Source: a virus. Taken from it: 45,432 nt of DNA. The stretch is from IMG/VR virus record IMGVR_UViG_3300001848_000600, positions 1 through 45,432 of that record. One strand, 5' to 3'. The notes under the pieces are model-generated. The model searched no databases, had not been told where the DNA came from, and saw nothing but the letters and a program-made list of their open reading frames with translations. The first letter of the stretch is position 1. Each line of letters starts with the position of its first letter. The translations under genes were made by a program, and so were the position numbers. Positions 1 through 43,902 of this stretch are shown in pieces.

Positions 1-1
1 T

Positions 2-82
2 GCCGAAAGGGCAACAGCGGCAAGAAATTCGGCAGTAAACGCTATAGGCAATATCCCGCCAGGAGTAACATCAGGCGGTTAG
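2..82 (+). CDS. C-terminal end of an upstream late gene (partial)
   Basis: An open frame enters from the window edge and ends at TAG 80-82, 49 bases before gp26. Only 26 residues are visible, ending PPGVTSGG, so the product cannot be identified. Its strand and its position directly before gp26 suggest a virion or baseplate gene of the same late operon. Confidence 0.5.
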   Translation, partial: AERATAARNSAVNAIGNIPPGVTSGG

Positions 83-131: not shown

Positions 132-833
132 ATGTTACCAAAAATACAACATCCAATATTTGAATTCAACATTCCATCGTTGAATAAAAAGTTTCATTTT
201 CGACCTTTTCTCACAAAGGAAGAAAAGATACTCCTTATTGCAAAATCCAGCGAAGACAAAACAGAAATTCTTCGAGCAATCAAGCAAATAATCAACAATT
301 GTTCTTTGGACAATTTAGATATAGATAAACTTGCAATGTTCGATATCGAATATTTGTTCCTGCAACTTCGTTCGGTTTCGGTCAATAATATCGTAAAGGT
401 TTCTTATAGAGACAATGAAGACAATGAAATATACGATTTTGATGTCGATCTTTCTAAAATAGAAGTTATCATTCCAAAAGTTGAAAAGAAAATTATGGTC
501 GATAAGAATGTTGGTATATTGATGAGATATGCTCCTGCTTCTATCGTCGATGAAATGGATTTCACCAAAATAGAAAACGATCTTCTGTTCGATATAATAC
601 TCAAATGCATCGATTCGATATTCGATAAAGAAGATGTTTACGATCCTGCAACTTATACAAAAGAAGAATTGGAATCGTTCCTTGACAATTGTGGCATAAA
701 AGTGCTTGAAAAGATTCAAGAATTTTTACAAAATGCTCCAAGGATGAAATATGAAATCGACTATACAAATAAAAATGGCAATTCAAGAAAGATTGTATTG
801 GATAGTTTGACAGATTTTTTTACGTTGGGTTGA
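132..833 (+). CDS. 26: Baseplate hub assembly protein gp26 (T4_baseplate family)
   Basis: The 233-residue product matches the T4 gp26 family. It has an N-terminal LPxIxHPxFEFNIPS segment, then FRPFLTKEEKILLIAKSS, a NNCSLDNLDIDKLAMFDIEYLFLQLRS-like core split over residues 50-80, and an acidic C-terminal half. In T4, gp26 is a minor hub component or chaperone needed for baseplate hub assembly. GAAGG 116-120 lies about 10 bases before the ATG. The in-frame TGA at 831-833 sits inside a stem-loop that follows a T7 slippery run, and the -1 frame stays open to 1006. Two products are therefore likely: the 233-residue form and a longer fusion. Family assignment is confident; the exact role here is inferred from T4. 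Confidence 0.9.
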   Translation: MLPKIQHPIFEFNIPSLNKKFHFRPFLTKEEKILLIAKSSEDKTEILRAIKQIINNCSLDNLDIDKLAMFDIEYLFLQLRSVSVNNIVKVSYRDNEDNEIYDFDVDLSKIEVIIPKVEKKIMVDKNVGILMRYAPASIVDEMDFTKIENDLLFDIILKCIDSIFDKEDVYDPATYTKEELESFLDNCGIKVLEKIQEFLQNAPRMKYEIDYTNKNGNSRKIVLDSLTDFFTLG

Positions 834-867
834 GTCATAACAGTTTAGAAAATTATTATGTCTCAAC
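815..867 (+). promoter_or_regulatory. Programmed -1 ribosomal frameshift signal
   Basis: The zero-frame codons gaT TTT TTT acg give a perfect T TTT TTT slippery heptamer at 815-821. Seven bases later a stem-loop begins: GTTGAG 829-834 pairs with CTCAAC 862-867 and CATAA 836-840 pairs with TTATG 856-860, with one T-T mismatch and a 15-base loop. The zero-frame TGA (831-833) is inside the stem. The -1 frame is closed by TAG at 803-805 and then open to 1003, so slippage must occur between these points, and this is the only slippery site there. Heptamer, spacer and stem all match classical -1 frameshift geometry. Transcriptional slippage on the T7 run is the alternative. Confidence 0.8.
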
Positions 868-1006
868 ATTCAGTTTAGTTCAACATCATAAATACAGTAT
901 TACAGAAATAGATGAACTAATTCCTTTTGAACGTGATCTTTATGTAGATATGCTTTTAAAATATTTGCGGGAGTTAGAAGAAAAAAGGAATATGCTCAAT
1001 GCCTAG
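821..1006 (+). CDS. Frameshift-encoded C-terminal domain of gp26 (61 residues)
   Basis: Reading in the -1 frame from the slippery site gives 61 residues: YVGLSHNSLENYY, then STFSLVQHHKYSITEIDELI and PFERDLYVDMLLKYLRELEE, ending at TAG 1004-1006. There is no ATG or GTG until deep inside the segment, and no ribosome-binding site. It is thus unlikely to be translated on its own. Fused to the first 230 residues of gp26 it gives a product of 291 residues. The LVQHHKYS...IPFERDLY pattern looks like a conserved helical tail-chaperone domain, comparable in layout to the G/GT, gpE/gpE' and Mu 41/42 frameshift pairs. It overlaps the holin start by 8 bases. Confidence 0.75.
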   Translation, partial: YVGLSHNSLENYYVSTFSLVQHHKYSITEIDELIPFERDLYVDMLLKYLRELEEKRNMLNA

Positions 1007-1559
1007 ATTCGATATGCCCGCAAAAAGTTCGGCAACACCGATAAACGATACAACCAACGTTGTATCGACACCGATTGCAAATACAGATCCAAATTCACAA
1101 ATAGGAATGGCTGCACAATCTATACCAGTACAGCCAGTCCAACCTATCGCTTCACCTGTAACAATAAACACTGCTTCTTCATCTCAATTTCAAAATCCTG
1201 TATTGAATACTCTTCAAGCACAACAGGCCATAGATTCTGCTCGTGCAAATACAATAGATGCAGAAACAAATAAAGAAATACAAGAAGAACAAATATCCAA
1301 ACAAGAAGAGCATTGGATAAAAGCATATTGGAGACCAACAATGGGTTGGCTTTATATGCTTATATGTTTTATGGATTTTGTTGGGTTTCCAATGATATCC
1401 GTTTTTCTTCCTATTGTTATGAAATCGTTTGGTATTGTTGTTGCATATAAAGAATGGGCTAGTCTTACTTTGTCCAATGGCGGATTGATACATTTGGCAT
1501 TTGGTGCTATTCTTGGTGTATCGGCTTGGACTAGAGGCCAAGAAAAGTTGATTAGATAA
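999..1559 (+). CDS. Holin of the 3-TM superfamily
   Basis: 186 residues. The first 100 are polar, Ser/Thr/Pro/Ala-rich and then Gln/Glu-rich helical. The C-terminal part contains WRPTMGWLYMLICFMDFV and two further hydrophobic segments, the last ending GAILGVSAWTRGQEK. This is the pattern of the Holin_3TMs family. A holin pores the inner membrane at the end of infection so that endolysin can escape. The start overlaps the gp26 frameshift extension, and the stop overlaps the ATG of the next gene (TAATG), so translation is probably coupled. The long soluble N-terminal arm is unusual and could be a regulatory or virion-contact domain. Confidence 0.75.
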   Translation: MPRFDMPAKSSATPINDTTNVVSTPIANTDPNSQIGMAAQSIPVQPVQPIASPVTINTASSSQFQNPVLNTLQAQQAIDSARANTIDAETNKEIQEEQISKQEEHWIKAYWRPTMGWLYMLICFMDFVGFPMISVFLPIVMKSFGIVVAYKEWASLTLSNGGLIHLAFGAILGVSAWTRGQEKLIR

Positions 1560-3655
1560 TGAGTGGTGCTATAGCAGGATTAGCTAGAGGTCTTTTAACT
1601 GGCGCGAAATCAGTTGGTCGAGCTGGTATAACTGGCGCCAAATTTGCAGCCAGAGAAGGATTGAGTGCTGCTGGTTCTTTTATTAAAGATTTATTTTCAA
1701 CTCATGATACAGGATCGCATGGAAAAAGTAAAGATGCGTCCAAAGTAAGAAACGCATCTGAAACGGAAAATTATTCTAGCAATAACATCAATATAATCCT
1801 TAACAATTTAGTAAAAAATACGGAAATAGCAGCAAATAATGCTGAATTGATATCGGACGAACAATTCAATCATATAACAATTTTAGAAAATATACTCGAT
1901 ACTGTCAAAAAATTAAATTTCAATCAGAATAATAAACCAACTCCAGAAATTAATCCCAATTTACCAAACACTCGAAAAAATCCTGAACCAAAAACTAGAC
2001 AACCAAGACCTAATGCAACTCCAAAATCTGAATCAAAACCAGGACCTAATGCAACTTCACAACCTAAAGTAAAACCAGGATATACGACAACACCTTCAGG
2101 AAAATACAGAGATATAAAAACTGGTAGATTTGTTTCACCCAAAATAGCTATCGAAGCGATAACTCCAAATGCTACAAAAATATTCAAACCAACAAATATT
2201 TTAAAGGGAGCTTCAAAGGGAGGAATTGCCGGTATTTTAGGTGGTATGGCGTTGGATTATGGTGCAGAAAAAGCCAGAGAAACTGGTCATACCACCATTG
2301 CAAAGGGATTGAATGTATCATCTTCAACATTAACTGGTGCTTCTACTGGCGCATTGATAGGATCAATAGTTCCTGGAATTGGTACCACAGTTGGTGGTGT
2401 GGTAGGCGGTGCAGCCGGTTTTGGTTATGGTTTATACAATGCATTGACTGAAGATAATCAAAATGAGCAACAACATGAGAATGCTGAACATATCGATCAA
2501 CAAAGTGGAGATACTAGAAGTTTTTATGAAAAATATGCGCCGTCTTGGTTAGGTGGAAAAGAAGCTCCTAAACAAACAGATGCAACCCCTTCTGATGCTG
2601 GAGGAGGTGGAGATCAAATATCTAATATACTTGCAACTATACGATCTAAAGAATCTAATACAGCTGGTGGATATAAAGCAAAAAATCCAAATTCTTCTGC
2701 TTCAGGCGCTTATCAGTTTTTAGATGGAACATGGCAAGCTTTGACAAAAAAATACAATATAGGTACAGAATATCAACATGCAATGGATGCACCTCCTGAA
2801 ATACAAGATGCTGTTGCTAGAAATCATGTAAGCGATATATTAAAACAGGTCAATGGAGATGTATCGAAAATACCTATAGTTTGGTATACAGGAAATCCAC
2901 AAGGAAAATCTAATGCAGTAAGCCAGGAAGTAATTTTAAAATACCAACAAGAATGGATGGCAAATTACAGTAAATTGGGAGGTGGAGAACAGATTGCCGA
3001 TGCTTCTAAACCTAGCGAGGCAACAAAGACTGGTGGAAAATTAACTACTCAATCTGGAATTTCATTGGAAGGTGTCGATCCCAATGTTGTTGCTGGTGTT
3101 GAAAAAATTCAATCTGCATTTGGAAAAAATCTAGTTATAAGCAGTGGCGTTAGAACTTCAGCAACTCCAGGAGTAGGCGGACAAGATCCACATCAAAAAC
3201 ATGCAGCGGTAGATATTTCTTATAAATCTAGTGGTATAGGTGAAAATGATATAAAAACATTGGCTTCGCTTGCATTGAATGCTGGATTTACTGGTATAGG
3301 GTTGGAAGATACACATTTACATTTAGATAATTCGCATGCAGTAAAAACATTATGGGGTCAAGATTATCATTTTGGTTCTGCTCCGGAATGGGCAAAAACT
3401 ATGACAGATTGGGGAAATGCTGGTGTAAAAATGGCAAGTGCACCAACTTCTGGTCAACAATTGAGCGCACAATCCGGTAGAATAGAAGCATCCGAACAAG
3501 CAGCTATGGCAAATCAAACTACAAATATGACCATGAATTCTCAATCGCAAACTTCTCCAAATCCACCGGTTTTAAATAATAATTCATCGAACTTTCAAGA
3601 TATTTCTATAATGACAAGATTGCAACAAACTTTCCCACAAGCATGGGCAGCATAA
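1559..3655 (+). CDS. Virion peptidoglycan hydrolase: transglycosylase-like plus M15 peptidase-like domains
   Basis: 698 residues. Residues 1-300 are low-complexity with Gly/Ala-rich hydrophobic stretches (GGIAGILGGMALDYG, GALIGSIVPGIGTTVGGVVGG). Around 350-480 is a lysozyme/SLT-like module with IRSKESN (candidate catalytic Glu), SASGAYQFLDGTWQ and an IVWYTGNPQG segment. Around 510-620 is a zinc peptidase-like module with SSGVRTS, DPHQKHAAVDI and GLEDTHLHLD, fitting the HxxxxAxD...ExxHxH ligands of the M15/VanY fold. Such enzymes sit in the tail tip or baseplate and open the cell wall during DNA entry; location after gp26 fits. It could alternatively be injected. The hydrolase calls rest on motifs; the N-terminal role is unknown. 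Confidence 0.7.
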   Translation: MSGAIAGLARGLLTGAKSVGRAGITGAKFAAREGLSAAGSFIKDLFSTHDTGSHGKSKDASKVRNASETENYSSNNINIILNNLVKNTEIAANNAELISDEQFNHITILENILDTVKKLNFNQNNKPTPEINPNLPNTRKNPEPKTRQPRPNATPKSESKPGPNATSQPKVKPGYTTTPSGKYRDIKTGRFVSPKIAIEAITPNATKIFKPTNILKGASKGGIAGILGGMALDYGAEKARETGHTTIAKGLNVSSSTLTGASTGALIGSIVPGIGTTVGGVVGGAAGFGYGLYNALTEDNQNEQQHENAEHIDQQSGDTRSFYEKYAPSWLGGKEAPKQTDATPSDAGGGGDQISNILATIRSKESNTAGGYKAKNPNSSASGAYQFLDGTWQALTKKYNIGTEYQHAMDAPPEIQDAVARNHVSDILKQVNGDVSKIPIVWYTGNPQGKSNAVSQEVILKYQQEWMANYSKLGGGEQIADASKPSEATKTGGKLTTQSGISLEGVDPNVVAGVEKIQSAFGKNLVISSGVRTSATPGVGGQDPHQKHAAVDISYKSSGIGENDIKTLASLALNAGFTGIGLEDTHLHLDNSHAVKTLWGQDYHFGSAPEWAKTMTDWGNAGVKMASAPTSGQQLSAQSGRIEASEQAAMANQTTNMTMNSQSQTSPNPPVLNNNSSNFQDISIMTRLQQTFPQAWAA

Positions 3656-10204: not shown

Positions 10205-10212
10205 TATTTATA
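10205..10212 (-). promoter_or_regulatory. Late promoter TATAAATA upstream of the 129-aa gene
   Basis: A perfect TATAAATA on the minus strand overlaps the end of gmhA, 41 bases before ATG 10164. It would allow late transcription of the RNase H/PhoH group. Confidence 0.5.
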
Positions 10213-10786
10213 ATACCAGAGAATTTTTATTCAAAGAATTTAAATATCTCATTTTTTGAGATATAGAATGCAATATCATCATATGAGTATCTTCAACAAC
10301 TCCATAATTTGCAGAAGGAATATGAATAGAAACATCTGCAATTTCTTTTGCTTCTCCACCGGTAAATCCAGTAAGAGCAAAAGTCTTCATTCCTTTTGCT
10401 TTTGCCCTATTCAAACCATTTATAATATTCTTTGAATTGCCGCTTGAAGAAATAGCAATTGCAATATCGTCTGAATTCGCGCCAATAAAATCCAATTGTT
10501 GCGAAAATATTTCATGGTATCCAATATCGTTTGCTATAGCTGTGATCAAAGGCATATTTGAAGATAAACTCACTGCCTTGACTCTTATACCGGTATCGAG
10601 TCTTACGCCTTTGGATATATCGCATACCCAATGTTCGGCAATTGCAGCAGAACCACCATTTCCAAACAAATATACTGTAGGATTTCCTGACAATATCGAA
10701 TTATACAATGTATCTACCGATTCTGCATTGACAAAATGCAATGCAGATGAAATGTTTTGTCTATAAGTTTCAAAATTTGTAATCAT
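10208..10786 (-). CDS. gmhA: Sedoheptulose-7-phosphate isomerase (GmhA-like, SIS domain)
   Basis: 192 residues, the full GmhA length. It converts sedoheptulose 7-phosphate to D-glycero-D-manno-heptose 7-phosphate, the first step of nucleotide-heptose synthesis. Motifs: FGNGGSAAIAEHWVCDISKG, ITAIANDIGYHEIF, AIAISSSGNSKNII and VEDTHMMILHSISQ, placing the SIS fold across the protein and the metal-binding His/Glu residues near the C-terminus. ATGA overlap with hddA upstream shows one operon. A generic sugar-phosphate isomerase is possible, but pairing with HddA favours heptose. Confidence 0.9.
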   Translation of the reverse strand: MITNFETYRQNISSALHFVNAESVDTLYNSILSGNPTVYLFGNGGSAAIAEHWVCDISKGVRLDTGIRVKAVSLSSNMPLITAIANDIGYHEIFSQQLDFIGANSDDIAIAISSSGNSKNIINGLNRAKAKGMKTFALTGFTGGEAKEIADVSIHIPSANYGVVEDTHMMILHSISQKMRYLNSLNKNSLVL

Positions 10787-11757
10787 ATTGTTATAGCGGA
10801 GCTTCCCATATCTGTAAAATTGAAGTGAAATCTTCTATATTCTTTCATTTTCGATTTAACGCTATCTTGATATTTTTGTGGCACATAAAATAACATATAT
10901 CCACCGCCACCAGCACCTAACAATTTACCTCCCAATGCACCAGCAGACATTGCAGTTTCATACATATCGTCTATATGTTCATTTGTAATATTTGGTGCCA
11001 ATTCTCGTTTCAATATCCATCCTTCATGCAACAACGATCCAAAATCGTCAATCTTATTGTGCTTAAGATAATCGATAGATTGTTTTGCCAATTCTACCAT
11101 GATTTTAGTATTTTCAAAGGTTTTACTGTTGGTTGAAATCATGTTTACTTGATTGGACAATATGTCGGATGTTTTTCTTGTAATTCCTGTATTGTAACAC
11201 AATAAATTTTCATTCAATGTTTTAATATTCGAAGTTTTCATTCCCAATGGAATAACTTCTACACCATCGTTATAAAAATGCATTGCATTGAATCCACCAT
11301 ATGCCGCAGCATATTGATCCTGTTTTCCAATGGGTTCTCTACATTTTTCAATTTCGATATCGCAAGCCATTTCAGCCAAATCTTTTTTATTATAATCGTA
11401 TTTCAAATGATTATAAATTCCATTGATTAAACCTACAGTATAAGACGAACTTGAACCTAAACCAGAACCATTTGTCGTTATATCAGAAAAACTTACAATT
11501 TCTATATTCGATTTGACGTTGAAATGCTTCAATATTTCCTTAGCACGAGTATGCTTTACATTTTCAACATCATTTACTTGTTCGAATTCTGAATATATAA
11601 CCTTTATATGTCTAGGTTCGCATTTGTTTATGGCAATTTGAATATGTTTATTTATAGATGTAGATACTACCAATCCTGGCGATTTTTCAAAAAATGCTGG
11701 AATGTCACTTCCTCCACCAAAAAATGACAATCTCAATGGAGTTTTCGTAACAATCAT
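10783..11757 (-). CDS. hddA: D-glycero-D-manno-heptose 7-phosphate kinase (HddA-like GHMP kinase)
   Basis: 324 residues. GHMP signatures: N-terminal TPLRLSFFGGGSDIPAFFE, the ATP-binding GSGLGSSSSYTVGLING, and C-terminal LGGKLLGAGGGGYMLFYVP. CREPIGKQDQYAAAYGG is characteristic of HddA-type kinases, which phosphorylate heptose 7-phosphate at C1. Overlaps its neighbours by 4 bases on both sides. Together with GmhA it gives heptose 1,7-bisphosphate; a GmhB phosphatase is not seen in the cassette and may come from the host. Confidence 0.9.
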   Translation of the reverse strand: MIVTKTPLRLSFFGGGSDIPAFFEKSPGLVVSTSINKHIQIAINKCEPRHIKVIYSEFEQVNDVENVKHTRAKEILKHFNVKSNIEIVSFSDITTNGSGLGSSSSYTVGLINGIYNHLKYDYNKKDLAEMACDIEIEKCREPIGKQDQYAAAYGGFNAMHFYNDGVEVIPLGMKTSNIKTLNENLLCYNTGITRKTSDILSNQVNMISTNSKTFENTKIMVELAKQSIDYLKHNKIDDFGSLLHEGWILKRELAPNITNEHIDDMYETAMSAGALGGKLLGAGGGGYMLFYVPQKYQDSVKSKMKEYRRFHFNFTDMGSSAITI

Positions 11758-32550: not shown

Positions 32551-33129
32551 ATGATTGATATTTATAATTCATCAGATTACAGAAAAATTTTCATGAAAAC
32601 ATATGGTTCTATACCTAAAGACAAGGACGGTAGATCATATGAAATTCATCATATAGATGGAAATAATTCAAATAATTCTCCAGAAAATTTGAAAGCTGTT
32701 TCTATAGAAGAACATTATTATATTCATTTGTCTCAAGGTGATTATGGCGCTTGTTTATTAATATCAAGTAGAATGACTACAACACCAGAAGAAAAGAGCA
32801 ATTTGGCTAGATCTCATGTCATTAAACAACTTGAAGAAAATAGACATCCATGGAAAACAGACTCATATCGTGAATCTCAAAGACTAAGAGCTTTATCAGA
32901 AAATAATCCATTTCTTGGAGGTGAAATTCAAAGAAAAAGTAGTAGAAAACGTGTAAGGGAAGGCACACATCATCTTTTAGGCGATAAAACAAATTTTAAT
33001 ATGATTAAAGAAGGTAAGCATCCATCTCAAAAAATATGGACATGCGAACATTGTGATATTATCGGTAAAGGAACAACTAATTATATTAGATGGCATGGTA
33101 ATAATTGCAAAAAATTAATAAAAAAATAA
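32551..33129 (+). CDS. HNH homing endonuclease (free-standing)
   Basis: 192 residues on the strand opposite its neighbours, with its own late promoter and AGGAG 8 bases from ATG. YEIHHIDGNNSNNSPENLKA is the HNH core and EHYYIH follows. The C-terminus WTCEHCDIIGKGTTNY and WHGNNCKK is a putative zinc finger. Such enzymes cleave phage genomes lacking the insertion and spread by recombination repair. It separates the HAD gene from a candidate RNA gene. Confidence 0.85.
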   Translation: MIDIYNSSDYRKIFMKTYGSIPKDKDGRSYEIHHIDGNNSNNSPENLKAVSIEEHYYIHLSQGDYGACLLISSRMTTTPEEKSNLARSHVIKQLEENRHPWKTDSYRESQRLRALSENNPFLGGEIQRKSSRKRVREGTHHLLGDKTNFNMIKEGKHPSQKIWTCEHCDIIGKGTTNYIRWHGNNCKKLIKK

Positions 33130-33493: not shown

Positions 33494-34696
33494 CTATGCA
33501 AATCCTTCAAATTTCTTAGAAAATTTAGACCTATTTTGAAAAAATTCATTATCTCGTTGACCATATTCTGTTTTATCCATAATTGGAATGTCGTCCTGTA
33601 TATTCTCCTGTTCTGTTTGATCTACATCGTATAATTTCATTTTCGATCTATCGATACCGATAACAAATCGGCGATTTTTAGATAAATCGCTGTATCTATT
33701 TTTAAGTTGTTTTACCATAATTTGATTGAACGATTCTAACTGTTCATTGCTAATAAGAGCAAACATCAAATCGGCAGTCGCAGGTAATCCGAAACTTTCC
33801 GAAACATCTGTCAAAACGACATCGGACGACGCATACCCACTTCTTGTTGTTTGTGTAGCTGTAACTATAGGAAGATCGTGTTCAACAGCTAAACCACGAA
33901 ATTCTTCCGCAATAGCCTTTACATAAGTATAACTATTTACCGACGCGGTATATTTTACTCGGCTAGAAGCACAAATATTGAGATAATCGATATAAATGAT
34001 ATCTGGAATAAAATTCTTTTTCAATTTCAATTCATTCAATAAATGTCTGAAATTTGCTGCACCAGCAGTAGACGTTGGATATTCTTTGATAATAAGCTTA
34101 CCAACAGTTTTCTTTTTTACCCTATCGATTTTTTTCATGAAAGAATCTTTTGGAACGGTTTCAATTTCATCCAAAGACATATCCAATAGATTTGCATCGA
34201 TACGTTCTGCAATTCTTTCTTCAGCCATTTCCATAGTAATATAAAGAACATTTTTACCATCAAGCAAATTGCTAGCGGCAAAATGACACATCGCAAGACT
34301 TTTCCCAACACCGGTATTATGGCTTGAAATTCCATTAGTATAATATCTATGATTTTCATGTTCTACATTAATATCTACGATAGGAATTATATTGCCGGTA
34401 TAACGAACAGCTCCCCTTTCAAATCCATTTTTTGTTAAAAAATTTGCATATTCAATTTTAGATAATTGTAGCGCGCTTATCCATCCATTATCAGTTTCAA
34501 ATAAATGTTCTGCATTGCATAATACAGATTCACTATTATTTTCCAACTGAAGGCTGTATTCTTCATAAATTCCCTTATCGATAAAGAAATTTACTCCTAC
34601 CCATCCATCGGGAGAATCTACTTCAATTTCATAATTTTCTTCTAACATGGTTTTTATTTTACTGATAGGGATTTCAATTTCAGTCCAAATTTTCAT
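33494..34696 (-). CDS. 41: Replicative helicase gp41, C-terminal part, fused to C-intein
   Basis: 400 residues from ATG 34696 (AGGAG upstream). Residues 1-127 are an intein C-fragment: block B VLCNAEHLFETDNGW (like gp41-1 inteins), block F IVDINVEHENHRYYTNG and block G SSHN, followed by +1 Thr. Residues 128-400 are the RecA-like core of a DnaB/gp41 helicase beginning in the P-loop TGVGKSLAMCHF, with ITMEMAEERIAERI, IIYIDYLNIC (Walker B), TATQTTRSG and MKQLKNRYSD-like arginine region. Splicing to the N-part would rebuild AGTGVGKS and a 468-residue helicase, close to T4 gp41 (475). Confidence 0.93.
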   Translation of the reverse strand: MKIWTEIEIPISKIKTMLEENYEIEVDSPDGWVGVNFFIDKGIYEEYSLQLENNSESVLCNAEHLFETDNGWISALQLSKIEYANFLTKNGFERGAVRYTGNIIPIVDINVEHENHRYYTNGISSHNTGVGKSLAMCHFAASNLLDGKNVLYITMEMAEERIAERIDANLLDMSLDEIETVPKDSFMKKIDRVKKKTVGKLIIKEYPTSTAGAANFRHLLNELKLKKNFIPDIIYIDYLNICASSRVKYTASVNSYTYVKAIAEEFRGLAVEHDLPIVTATQTTRSGYASSDVVLTDVSESFGLPATADLMFALISNEQLESFNQIMVKQLKNRYSDLSKNRRFVIGIDRSKMKLYDVDQTEQENIQDDIPIMDKTEYGQRDNEFFQNRSKFSKKFEGFA

Positions 34697-34710
34697 TAAA
34701 AAATTTCTCC

Positions 34711-34754
34711 TATAAATAATATTGTAGATCGCGATGCTACCAACATCCATCTAC
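34711..34754 (+). promoter_or_regulatory. Late promoter and leader hairpin of the second homing endonuclease
   Basis: Plus-strand TATAAATA at 34711-34718, then GTAGAT 34724-34729 pairing with ATCTAC 34749-34754. The loop shares CGCG, TGC and CATCC with the first endonuclease leader, and AAGGAG follows. Confidence 0.55.
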
Positions 34755-34783
34755 TCTAACGTCTGAAAAGGAGACATCAGCAA

Positions 34784-35419
34784 ATGTATTTACGCATTTA
34801 TAATAATCTATGTTCATCAAATTGTCAACGAAAAGAATTGTGGTTGCCAGGTTCTGGTATTCATAGACATCATATATTACCAAAACATATGGGCGGATTG
34901 GATGAAGATAATAATTATACATATCTATATCCACGCGAACATCAAATAGCACATTTTTTATTATGGAAAATATATAAAAATCCAAATGATCTTAGATCAA
35001 TGCATATGCTTGGTGCAAAATTAACTATTTCACAGAGAAAAATTGTAGGCATTTGGTGTAGAGACAACAAAATAGGAATTCATGGTTCTTCCTCTGAAAA
35101 TAGAAAACAGTGGGCTTTAAAAGGATTAGAAACACAAAAAGAATCAAATAATAAAAAAACATTTTATTATTGGTCTACAGAAACTGGCAGAAAAGAACGA
35201 TGTGCTTTGGGGGGAAAATCTGGTTCTAAAACACAAATAAAAAATAAAATTGGTATATTCGATTCTAATAAAAGAACTGAATATGCTAAACTTGGCGGAC
35301 AATCATTGAAGGGAATGATTTGCGTAACCAATGGTATTCATAGAACTAGAATTAAACCTCATTTATTAGATGAATATGTGTCAAATGGTTATCGTTTAGG
35401 ATTTACTCTTTTTTCCTAA
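34784..35419 (+). CDS. HNH homing endonuclease between the halves of gp41
   Basis: 211 residues on the strand opposite to gp41. HRHHILPKHMGGLDEDNNYT is the HNH core, EHQIAHFLLWKIY follows, and Gly-rich KRTEYAKLGGQSLKG and RIKPHLLDEYVSNGYRLG look like NUMOD-type DNA-binding modules. Its 3' end overlaps the last codons of the gp41 N-part by 17 bases. It lies exactly where the intein is broken, as in phage 'fractured genes', and probably mobilises the broken-intein locus. Confidence 0.88.
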   Translation: MYLRIYNNLCSSNCQRKELWLPGSGIHRHHILPKHMGGLDEDNNYTYLYPREHQIAHFLLWKIYKNPNDLRSMHMLGAKLTISQRKIVGIWCRDNKIGIHGSSSENRKQWALKGLETQKESNNKKTFYYWSTETGRKERCALGGKSGSKTQIKNKIGIFDSNKRTEYAKLGGQSLKGMICVTNGIHRTRIKPHLLDEYVSNGYRLGFTLFS

Positions 35420-36038
35420 ATCTTATTCTAACTTTTGTATCTGGATGAACACATCCTGCCAATATAACATTCAATGTCTTTCTAGAAAGCCCGCCTTTAG
35501 TGATAAGATTCATGTATTCCAGATTGAAAGGCATTTTTGCTTCTTTACGATGATAAAAATCGTAACGAGTTTCAGCGTCTTCCAAAAAACTATGACCAAT
35601 ATTAGAATCGAAACTTACAGCCAGAGCATCGGATAAAATCTGTGGTATTGCGCCTTTATCATATTTGCTATTTTTATTATCCAAAATTTGAATAGAATCC
35701 ATAATAGCATTATAAACGGCTTTTTCTTGACAAAATTTTTCTGTTTTTTCTACAAGCCAATCTACTTCTGTTTTAGGATCATAAGAGAGTTGATCTATGA
35801 TATCTTTGCACATATCATGAATTGGTTGACTTATACCAGTTTTTGAATTCATTTCAACTTCAATCGCTTCCTTTGATGGAAAGCGATTGAATTTGTTTAC
35901 ATAATTTTCAATCAATTCAAAAATAATTTTGTCGGAAATATCATGAAAATATTCCGATTTTAGAAAAGGTATTACTTTGCGTGCATAATCGTCACGATTT
36001 ATAATATTACCAAAAATTACTTGTTCAAAAGACGCCAT
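35403..36038 (-). CDS. 41: Replicative helicase gp41, N-terminal part, fused to N-intein
   Basis: 211 residues. Residues 1-195 are the gp41 N-terminal domain and linker (MASFEQVIFGNIINRDDYAR, KSEYFHDISDKIIFELI, then YMNLITKGGLSRKTLNVILAG). Residues 196-211, CVHPDTKVRIRFRKKE, are an intein N-fragment starting with the required Cys and ending at TAA. The break is just inside the Walker A loop. At 16 residues it is a very short N-intein, the atypical split type. GGAGG lies 4 bases before ATG. Both halves must be made and trans-spliced for replication. Confidence 0.93.
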   Translation of the reverse strand: MASFEQVIFGNIINRDDYARKVIPFLKSEYFHDISDKIIFELIENYVNKFNRFPSKEAIEVEMNSKTGISQPIHDMCKDIIDQLSYDPKTEVDWLVEKTEKFCQEKAVYNAIMDSIQILDNKNSKYDKGAIPQILSDALAVSFDSNIGHSFLEDAETRYDFYHRKEAKMPFNLEYMNLITKGGLSRKTLNVILAGCVHPDTKVRIRFRKKE

Positions 36039-43548: not shown

Positions 43549-43902
43549 TTATCCGCGTTTTAAAATTTTTATCGATTGTCTTTCTGGTTTATAAAATTCT
43601 ATAATTTTTGGCAAACTTGTTTCCGGATCCGAAACGCCACAATAAAATGCATCTATAGCTGCATATCCTTCTTCTGGCCATGTATGAACGGATATATGGC
43701 TTTCGGACAATATAATAACTCCCGTATATCCACACCCATTTCCAAAATGATGCCAACGTTCTGTTATAATAGTAACACCAGAAAATTTTGCGGCTTCTTT
43801 TAAAGCCACCGCTGCCTCATCCATATTCCAATAAGGCAAAGAATTTTTTTCACCCCATATATCGAGTATCAGATGTTTTCCTTGAGGAGGTACATTGTGC
43901 AT
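43549..43902 (-). CDS. speD: S-adenosylmethionine decarboxylase proenzyme (SpeD)
   Basis: 117 residues, the size of class 1B SpeD. GKHLILDIWGEKN, the cleavage and pyruvoyl site in LSESHISVHTWPEEGYAAID (Ser of ESHIS), and AFYCGVSDPE (catalytic Cys) are all present. It makes decarboxylated AdoMet for spermidine synthesis; polyamines help to neutralise packaged DNA. It appears fully functional, unlike the paralogue at 14848-15219. Confidence 0.92.
   Translation of the reverse strand: MHNVPPQGKHLILDIWGEKNSLPYWNMDEAAVALKEAAKFSGVTIITERWHHFGNGCGYTGVIILSESHISVHTWPEEGYAAIDAFYCGVSDPETSLPKIIEFYKPERQSIKILKRG

Follow-up and report, generated by a model that had tools for sequence, protein, structure and literature searches.

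A T4-type gp26 gene that very probably encodes both tail-assembly chaperones through a conserved −1 slip site

Introduction

In phage lambda, the G/GT gene follows the tail-tube gene, as in the virus described here, and carries a slip sequence that differs from the one in this virus. Tail chaperones of T4-type phages, TAC-N and TAC-NC, with poly-T slippage, were reportedly described by Vladimirov, Gautam and Davidson in 2022 (Virology 566:9-15). PMC5009743 sets out the roles of lambda gpG and gpGT, a short and a long protein made by −1 slippage, and PMC10885494 and PMC12846349 credit the T4-type TAC frameshift to Vladimirov et al. 2022. In Vandenendeviridae and Andersonviridae, the −1 frame is uninterrupted in all alleles, according to PMC12846349.

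Here we describe a window of 45,432 nucleotides, an environmental virus record (IMGVR_UViG_3300001848_000600), in which a gp26 gene ends close to a run of seven T's. A first-pass annotation had placed a −1 frameshift there and knew of no defined signal for T4-type gp26; judging from the citations in PMC10885494 and PMC12846349, such a frameshift had been published earlier. We conclude that this one gene very probably supplies both tail-assembly chaperones of a T4-type phage through −1 slippage.

Results

Read from the ATG at 132, the gp26 codons end in GAT (813), TTT (816), TTT (819), ACG, TTG, GGT and TGA (831-833). The T7 run, nine bases 5′ of this stop, is thus T_TTT_TTT in X_XXY_YYZ phase, just as the first-pass annotation had it (Table 1). 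The 7-nt spacer that it gave between the heptamer and a stem (822-828) is also correct, and so is its 61-residue open −1 frame, which reads YVGLSHNSLENYY...EKRNMLNA from 821 to a stop at 1004-1006. The claim that this frame has no start codon is not strictly true, as a TTG overlaps the zero-frame stop; the next −1-frame start after TTG 830 is ATG 950, which is too late.

In the 41 genes of this AT-rich window, X3Y3 occurs in phase at 134 of 11,939 codon positions and 6 of 22 FF pairs are written T_TTT_TT; in-phase TTTTTT, found at 15 of the 11,939 positions, is not a rarity here. By itself, the heptamer is only mildly unusual and alone would prove little; the site is beyond chance because the heptamer is conserved across phages. 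The 15 occurrences favour a chance slip site beside a decayed or unrelated reading frame, but conservation, selection on the extension and its homology to gp51 (see below) refute that reading, which we regard as barely conceivable.

Table 1. Features at the gp26 locus of the window
Feature	Position	Strand	Basis
3′ end of the tail tube gene (gp19-like), adjoining gp26 upstream	1..82	+	overlap with L002; phrog_45, E 1.8e-35
gp26 / TAC-N, short tail-assembly-chaperone form, 233 aa, zero frame, TGA 831-833	132..833	+	profile matches, predicted fold
Slippery heptamer T_TTT_TTT, in phase	815..821	+	codon reading; conservation across phages
−1 extension (TAC-C, gp51 homology), 61 aa and stop	821..1006	+	phrog_634 profile, tblastn
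Predicted stem-loop, 7 nt past the heptamer	829..867	+	z −3.29; no support in relatives
−1-frame TTG that shares bases with the zero-frame stop; sole candidate start at the head of the extension	830..832	+	
Holin-like gene; ATG overlaps the last 8 bases of the extension	999..1559	+	GTA_holin_3TM, E 7.3e-6; phrog_3427 holin, E 9.1e-8
Candidate tape measure protein with cell-wall-lytic domains	1559..3655	+	weak: phrog_23574, E 4e-5; Peptidase_M15_3, E 3.2e-6

The zero-frame product matches PF12322 (T4_baseplate; E 1.4e-50) and phrog_150 ('baseplate hub'; E 6.2e-55), and residues 4-57 of the extension match positions 60-113 of phrog_634 ('baseplate hub assembly catalyst', the gp51 family; E 6e-22). 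Of the 50,697 phage records in one collection, 544, mostly of Synechococcus, Prochlorococcus and Vibrio phages, matched the extension in tblastn (E up to 10), with up to 63% identity, and 621 matched gp26; blastn gave no DNA match in the same collection. By its profile match, the extension is homologous to gp51. A possible link with DUF6760, from contractile injection systems, was dropped: one of 40 members matched PF20546, with E 0.034 and among 19 weak families, and the record of the window itself gave no hit when searched for this link.

T4 itself (L001) has gene 26 on the minus strand and gene 51 on the plus strand. T4 gp26 (208 aa) matches PF12322 only; T4 gp51 (249 aa) matches PF12322 over residues 1-201, reaches profile position 280 of 282 in phrog_150 and runs on into phrog_634. 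The extension profile aligns to residues 207-243 of T4 gp51, and when T4-type gp51 proteins and −1 extensions are aligned, they have the same C-terminal segment. Since gp51 is PF12322 plus the extension and gp26 is PF12322 only, T4 encodes two forms as two genes, gp26 being the short one and gp51, a gp26-like domain with the extension, the long one. A two-gene TAC arrangement in some T4-like phages is also given in the PRFect paper (PMC10885494), which cites Vladimirov et al. 2022. One gp51 gene of the T4 group (L174, 2501-3246) has a frame break in its middle, with AAACCCA before a TAG; either an error in sequencing or a gene that is broken could account for it, and it was kept apart from the frameshift sites.

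The first-pass annotation had set conservation of the slip site and the −1 frame as a check, and both are conserved. Within a first set of 161 sequences, 158 contain both gp26 and the extension (109 distinct), and all 158 have the extension in the −1 frame and an in-phase T6Y heptamer; two exceptions (L014 and L107) have one part only, and T4 matched neither query. Further queries enlarged the set to 254 sequences, 253 with a gp26-like match (181 distinct). In 165 of the 181 distinct loci, gp26 is followed by a −1 extension, and every one of these 165 has an in-phase T_TTT_TTT or T_TTT_TTC. The remaining 16 comprise five loci ended by a contig edge and 11 gp51-type genes of the T4 group: eight with the extension in frame, two with a profile match short of E 1e-3, and L174. 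T_TTT_TTN also stands at the end of gp26 in 12 of 12 named phages (Kyanoviridae, Pootjesviridae, Emdodecavirus, Menderavirus, an unclassified Ochrobactrum phage and Straboviridae outside the T4 group), three of which are already among the 254 sequences; the extension profile recognised 11 of the 12 and missed Stenotrophomonas phage Yut3.

The codon preceding FF at the site is of seven kinds (GAT, AAT, AGT, TCT, GCT, ACT and CAT), all ending in T. The first F codon is always TTT (elsewhere, TTT 1269 and TTC 615), and the second is TTT in 84 loci and TTC in 81, as tandem slippage allows. Elsewhere in the same 165 gp26 genes, used as a control, T_TTT_TTY accounts for 6 of 129 FF pairs, and in-phase TTTTTT occurs at 21 of 37,184 codon positions. 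It should be noted that the loci are related and the counts not independent; when representatives were thinned by shared three-residue words to 94, 77 and 40, the heptamer was present in all, including 40/40 mutually divergent ones.

The zero-frame stop lies 0 nt (20 loci), 3 nt (74), 6 nt (6), 9 nt (53, the class of the window) or 24 nt (12) beyond the heptamer. In L052, L056, L059, L060, L062, L063, L073 and L079, T_TTT_TTT is directly followed by TGA or TAG, so slippage there would compete with termination. The other two frames of the extension are interrupted by stops in 165/165 loci, and it is under purifying selection, with a median dN/dS of 0.35 (408 of 4,000 sampled pairs, with dS 0.05-1.5).

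The extension might instead be a separate small gene 51 with its own start (TTG 830 here), coupled to termination of gp26. TTG 830 overlaps the gp26 stop, KVP40 has an ATG at the zero-frame stop, some ATG, GTG or TTG occurs within the first 12 extension codons in 73/165 loci, and gp51 or a small ORF is annotated separately in public records such as those of S-ShM2, phiM12, KVP40 and EniLVp02. However, 92/165 loci have no ATG, GTG or TTG in these 12 codons, 142/165 have no ATG, and in only four of the 165 does the part of the −1 frame that is open ahead of the slip site contain a start. A separate gene also leaves 165 in-phase heptamers unexplained, and T4 has the domain as the C-terminus of a gp26-like protein. 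An own start was therefore rejected for most loci on the start-codon counts, although 73 do have some start, and a separate gene 51 is very unlikely.

RNA polymerase slipping on the T run could also yield the long form, as one base inserted into the T7 run here would give the same −1 reading. Yet the run has just six T's (T_TTT_TTC) in 81/165 loci, and the site is T_TTT_TTG in two Rhizobium phages; these are short for slippage of RNA polymerase, for which PMC5009743 gives runs of 9 A or T. The codon phase seen here would moreover be unnecessary, and we consider transcriptional slippage extremely unlikely. The −1 programmed frameshift of the first-pass annotation is supported by the conservation and by T4 gp51, a single polypeptide.

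The fold of 822-880 pairs 829-834 with 862-867, 836-840 with 856-860 and 842-846 with 850-854, with the TGA in the 5′ arm (dG −13.1 kcal/mol; z −3.29; 1 of 200 shuffles as good). The 11-bp stem holding the zero-frame stop, claimed earlier as part of the signal, is therefore present, together with an inner 5 bp, but it is not conserved as a signal element. Among 31 sequences (29 distinct) of the 53 in the window's class, the stem positions pair in 56.0% of cells versus 55.7% in shuffles, with no consensus structure, and a folding z below −2 is found for 9% of the 53 clade members versus 8% of controls. In L087, the outer helix is retained, and one of its pairs has changed on both sides, from G-C to A-U. 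Because the 31 clade sequences give no support and the clade is at control level, the stem-loop was rejected as part of the signal; in the window, it is a possible local stimulator.

The dnaX frameshift has a Shine-Dalgarno stimulator upstream of its slip site. A GGAG, GAGG, AGGA or AGGG word stands 6-16 nt before the heptamer in 90, 59, 83 and 58% of the loci with the stop at 0, 3, 6 and 24 nt, respectively (L052, L042 and L066 among them), and in 4% of the window's class (stop at 9 nt), compared with 4.7% (1593/33,884) at control positions; as an element, the word is absent from the window's clade. In the 112 loci with the stop at 0, 3, 6 or 24 nt, glutamate at the site is encoded by GAG in 42 of 47 cases versus 626 of 2,426 elsewhere (GAG 11, GAA 2 at the site in the thinnest representative set). 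This bias suggests that the RNA word itself is selected, similar to dnaX, whose stimulator is alluded to in PMC5009743; the control for shared descent is only partial. Since the stem is not conserved and the Shine-Dalgarno-like element is absent, no stimulator is established beyond the heptamer in the window's clade. The upstream element in marine lineages is possibly new: no description of one for gp26 was found in listings of the CC0, CC BY and CC BY-SA papers of PMC, although Vladimirov et al. 2022 is the likeliest place for one.

Over 3,199 bases, L002 and the window have the same sequence; L002 reaches further upstream, where genes for head closure (gp4), the DNA end protector (gp2) and the tail tube directly precede gp26. 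In the window, the tail tube gene lies directly upstream of gp26, and the candidate tape measure gene, a weak assignment (E 4e-5), lies downstream beyond the holin-like gene.

The gp26 structure was predicted with confidence (pLDDT 91.9). Its N-terminal part (first 84-93 residues) aligns with the HK97 tail assembly chaperone 2ob9 (Z 7.5, 3.8 Å, 83 residues), 3fgx (Z 8.0) and YqbN 3klu (Z 6.9), the latter two of which we take to be members of the chaperone family; a Z below 8 can reflect a common arrangement, but these three stand well above the rest, the next match having Z 2.2. Foldseek alone gave no significant match for the gp26 model (2ob9 at E 2.2), and a sequence-profile search of solved structures gave no chaperone or other relevant match. 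For a T4-type long form (L173), whose model has residues 1-8 at low confidence and lacks the N-terminal strands, the fold search listed no chaperone, its best match being unrelated (Z 5.1), a result that does not help the chaperone reading. The predicted fold of gp26 is similar to that of the HK97 tail-assembly chaperone. The suggestion that gp26 and its extension are the T4-type counterpart of the lambda G/GT pair gains support from the conservation, T4 gp51, the gene order and this predicted fold.

Elsewhere in the window, a gp41/DnaB-like helicase gene (33494-36038, −) seems to be divided inside its ATP-binding region. Its first part, an upstream ORF (35403-36038, −), has the end ...NVILAG-CVHPDTKVRIRFRKKE, and its second, a downstream ORF (33494-34750, −; DnaB_C, E 3.5e-13), resumes with ...YYTNGISSHN-TGVGKS; an ORF of opposite orientation between the two parts (34784-35419, +) matched no Pfam family. 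The arrangement looks like an atypical split intein. The window also contains a free-standing HNH endonuclease gene (32551-33129, +; HNH_3, E 2.9e-10) and host-like metabolic genes for a SIS-domain isomerase, a GHMP kinase and an S-adenosylmethionine decarboxylase (10208-11757 and 43549-43902, −).

Discussion

Given the frames, the phase of the heptamer, the homologies, the conservation and the two-gene equivalent in T4, we infer slippage at this gene, at some rate, and chaperone action of its products in this phage. Most ribosomes would terminate at TGA 831, which yields the short form (TAC-N or gp26). A minority would slip one base back at the heptamer and then read TAC GTT GGG TTG AGT..., giving a long form, TAC-NC, of about 291 aa, with C-terminal helices that correspond to the gp51 domain. 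If the lambda G/GT pair is a guide, short copies in large number and a few long ones may coat the tape measure protein, recruit tail-tube subunits and then leave. Counting against slippage, U_UUU_UUU is less shift-prone than A_AAA_AAG in E. coli, according to PMC5009743.

More tentatively, and with a degree of doubt that leans against it, we suggest that T4-type phages set the ratio of short to long chaperone in at least three ways. In marine and other lineages, T_TTT_TTY may be combined with a Shine-Dalgarno-like element inside the gene, some 8-10 nt before the heptamer, in the style of dnaX and kept at the codon level. The clade of the window may rely on the heptamer alone, followed by the stop after 9 nt, without the element or a conserved stem. 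The T4 group would do without slippage and have two genes, one short and one long. If this is true, the novelty lies in the upstream element and in the split between clades.

Slippage at gp26 corrects a recurrent annotation in phage records, in which gp51 appears as a separate small gene or is omitted. It also supports the view that the T4 'baseplate hub' proteins gp26 and gp51 are tail-assembly chaperones, and makes the textbook phage T4 the exception that encodes the two forms in two genes. The same protein pair, produced via slippage or from two genes and with or without an upstream stimulator, offers a ready test system.

The slip site of the window is real and well interpreted, and the T4-type TAC frameshift to which it belongs is already known in print. 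As in the T4-type TAC-N and TAC-NC, the proteins belong to the gp26/gp51 family and the long form very probably arises by −1 frameshift; the window differs from the published T4-type TACs in its source, an environmental virus record, and in nothing of kind, as far as the citing papers go. With lambda gpG and gpGT, it very probably shares a short/long pair made by −1 slippage, as outlined for lambda in PMC5009743. Vandenendeviridae and Andersonviridae (PMC12846349) likewise have a −1 frameshift and a T-rich site at the end of TAC-N, but their motif is GTTTTT, whereas that of the window's group is T_TTT_TTY, and the proteins are likened here by slip site rather than by relation to gp26. T4 genes 26 and 51 encode the same two protein forms as the window, PF12322 alone and PF12322 with the extension; in T4, these are divergently oriented separate genes without a frameshift between them, whereas the window has a single gene with a slip site.
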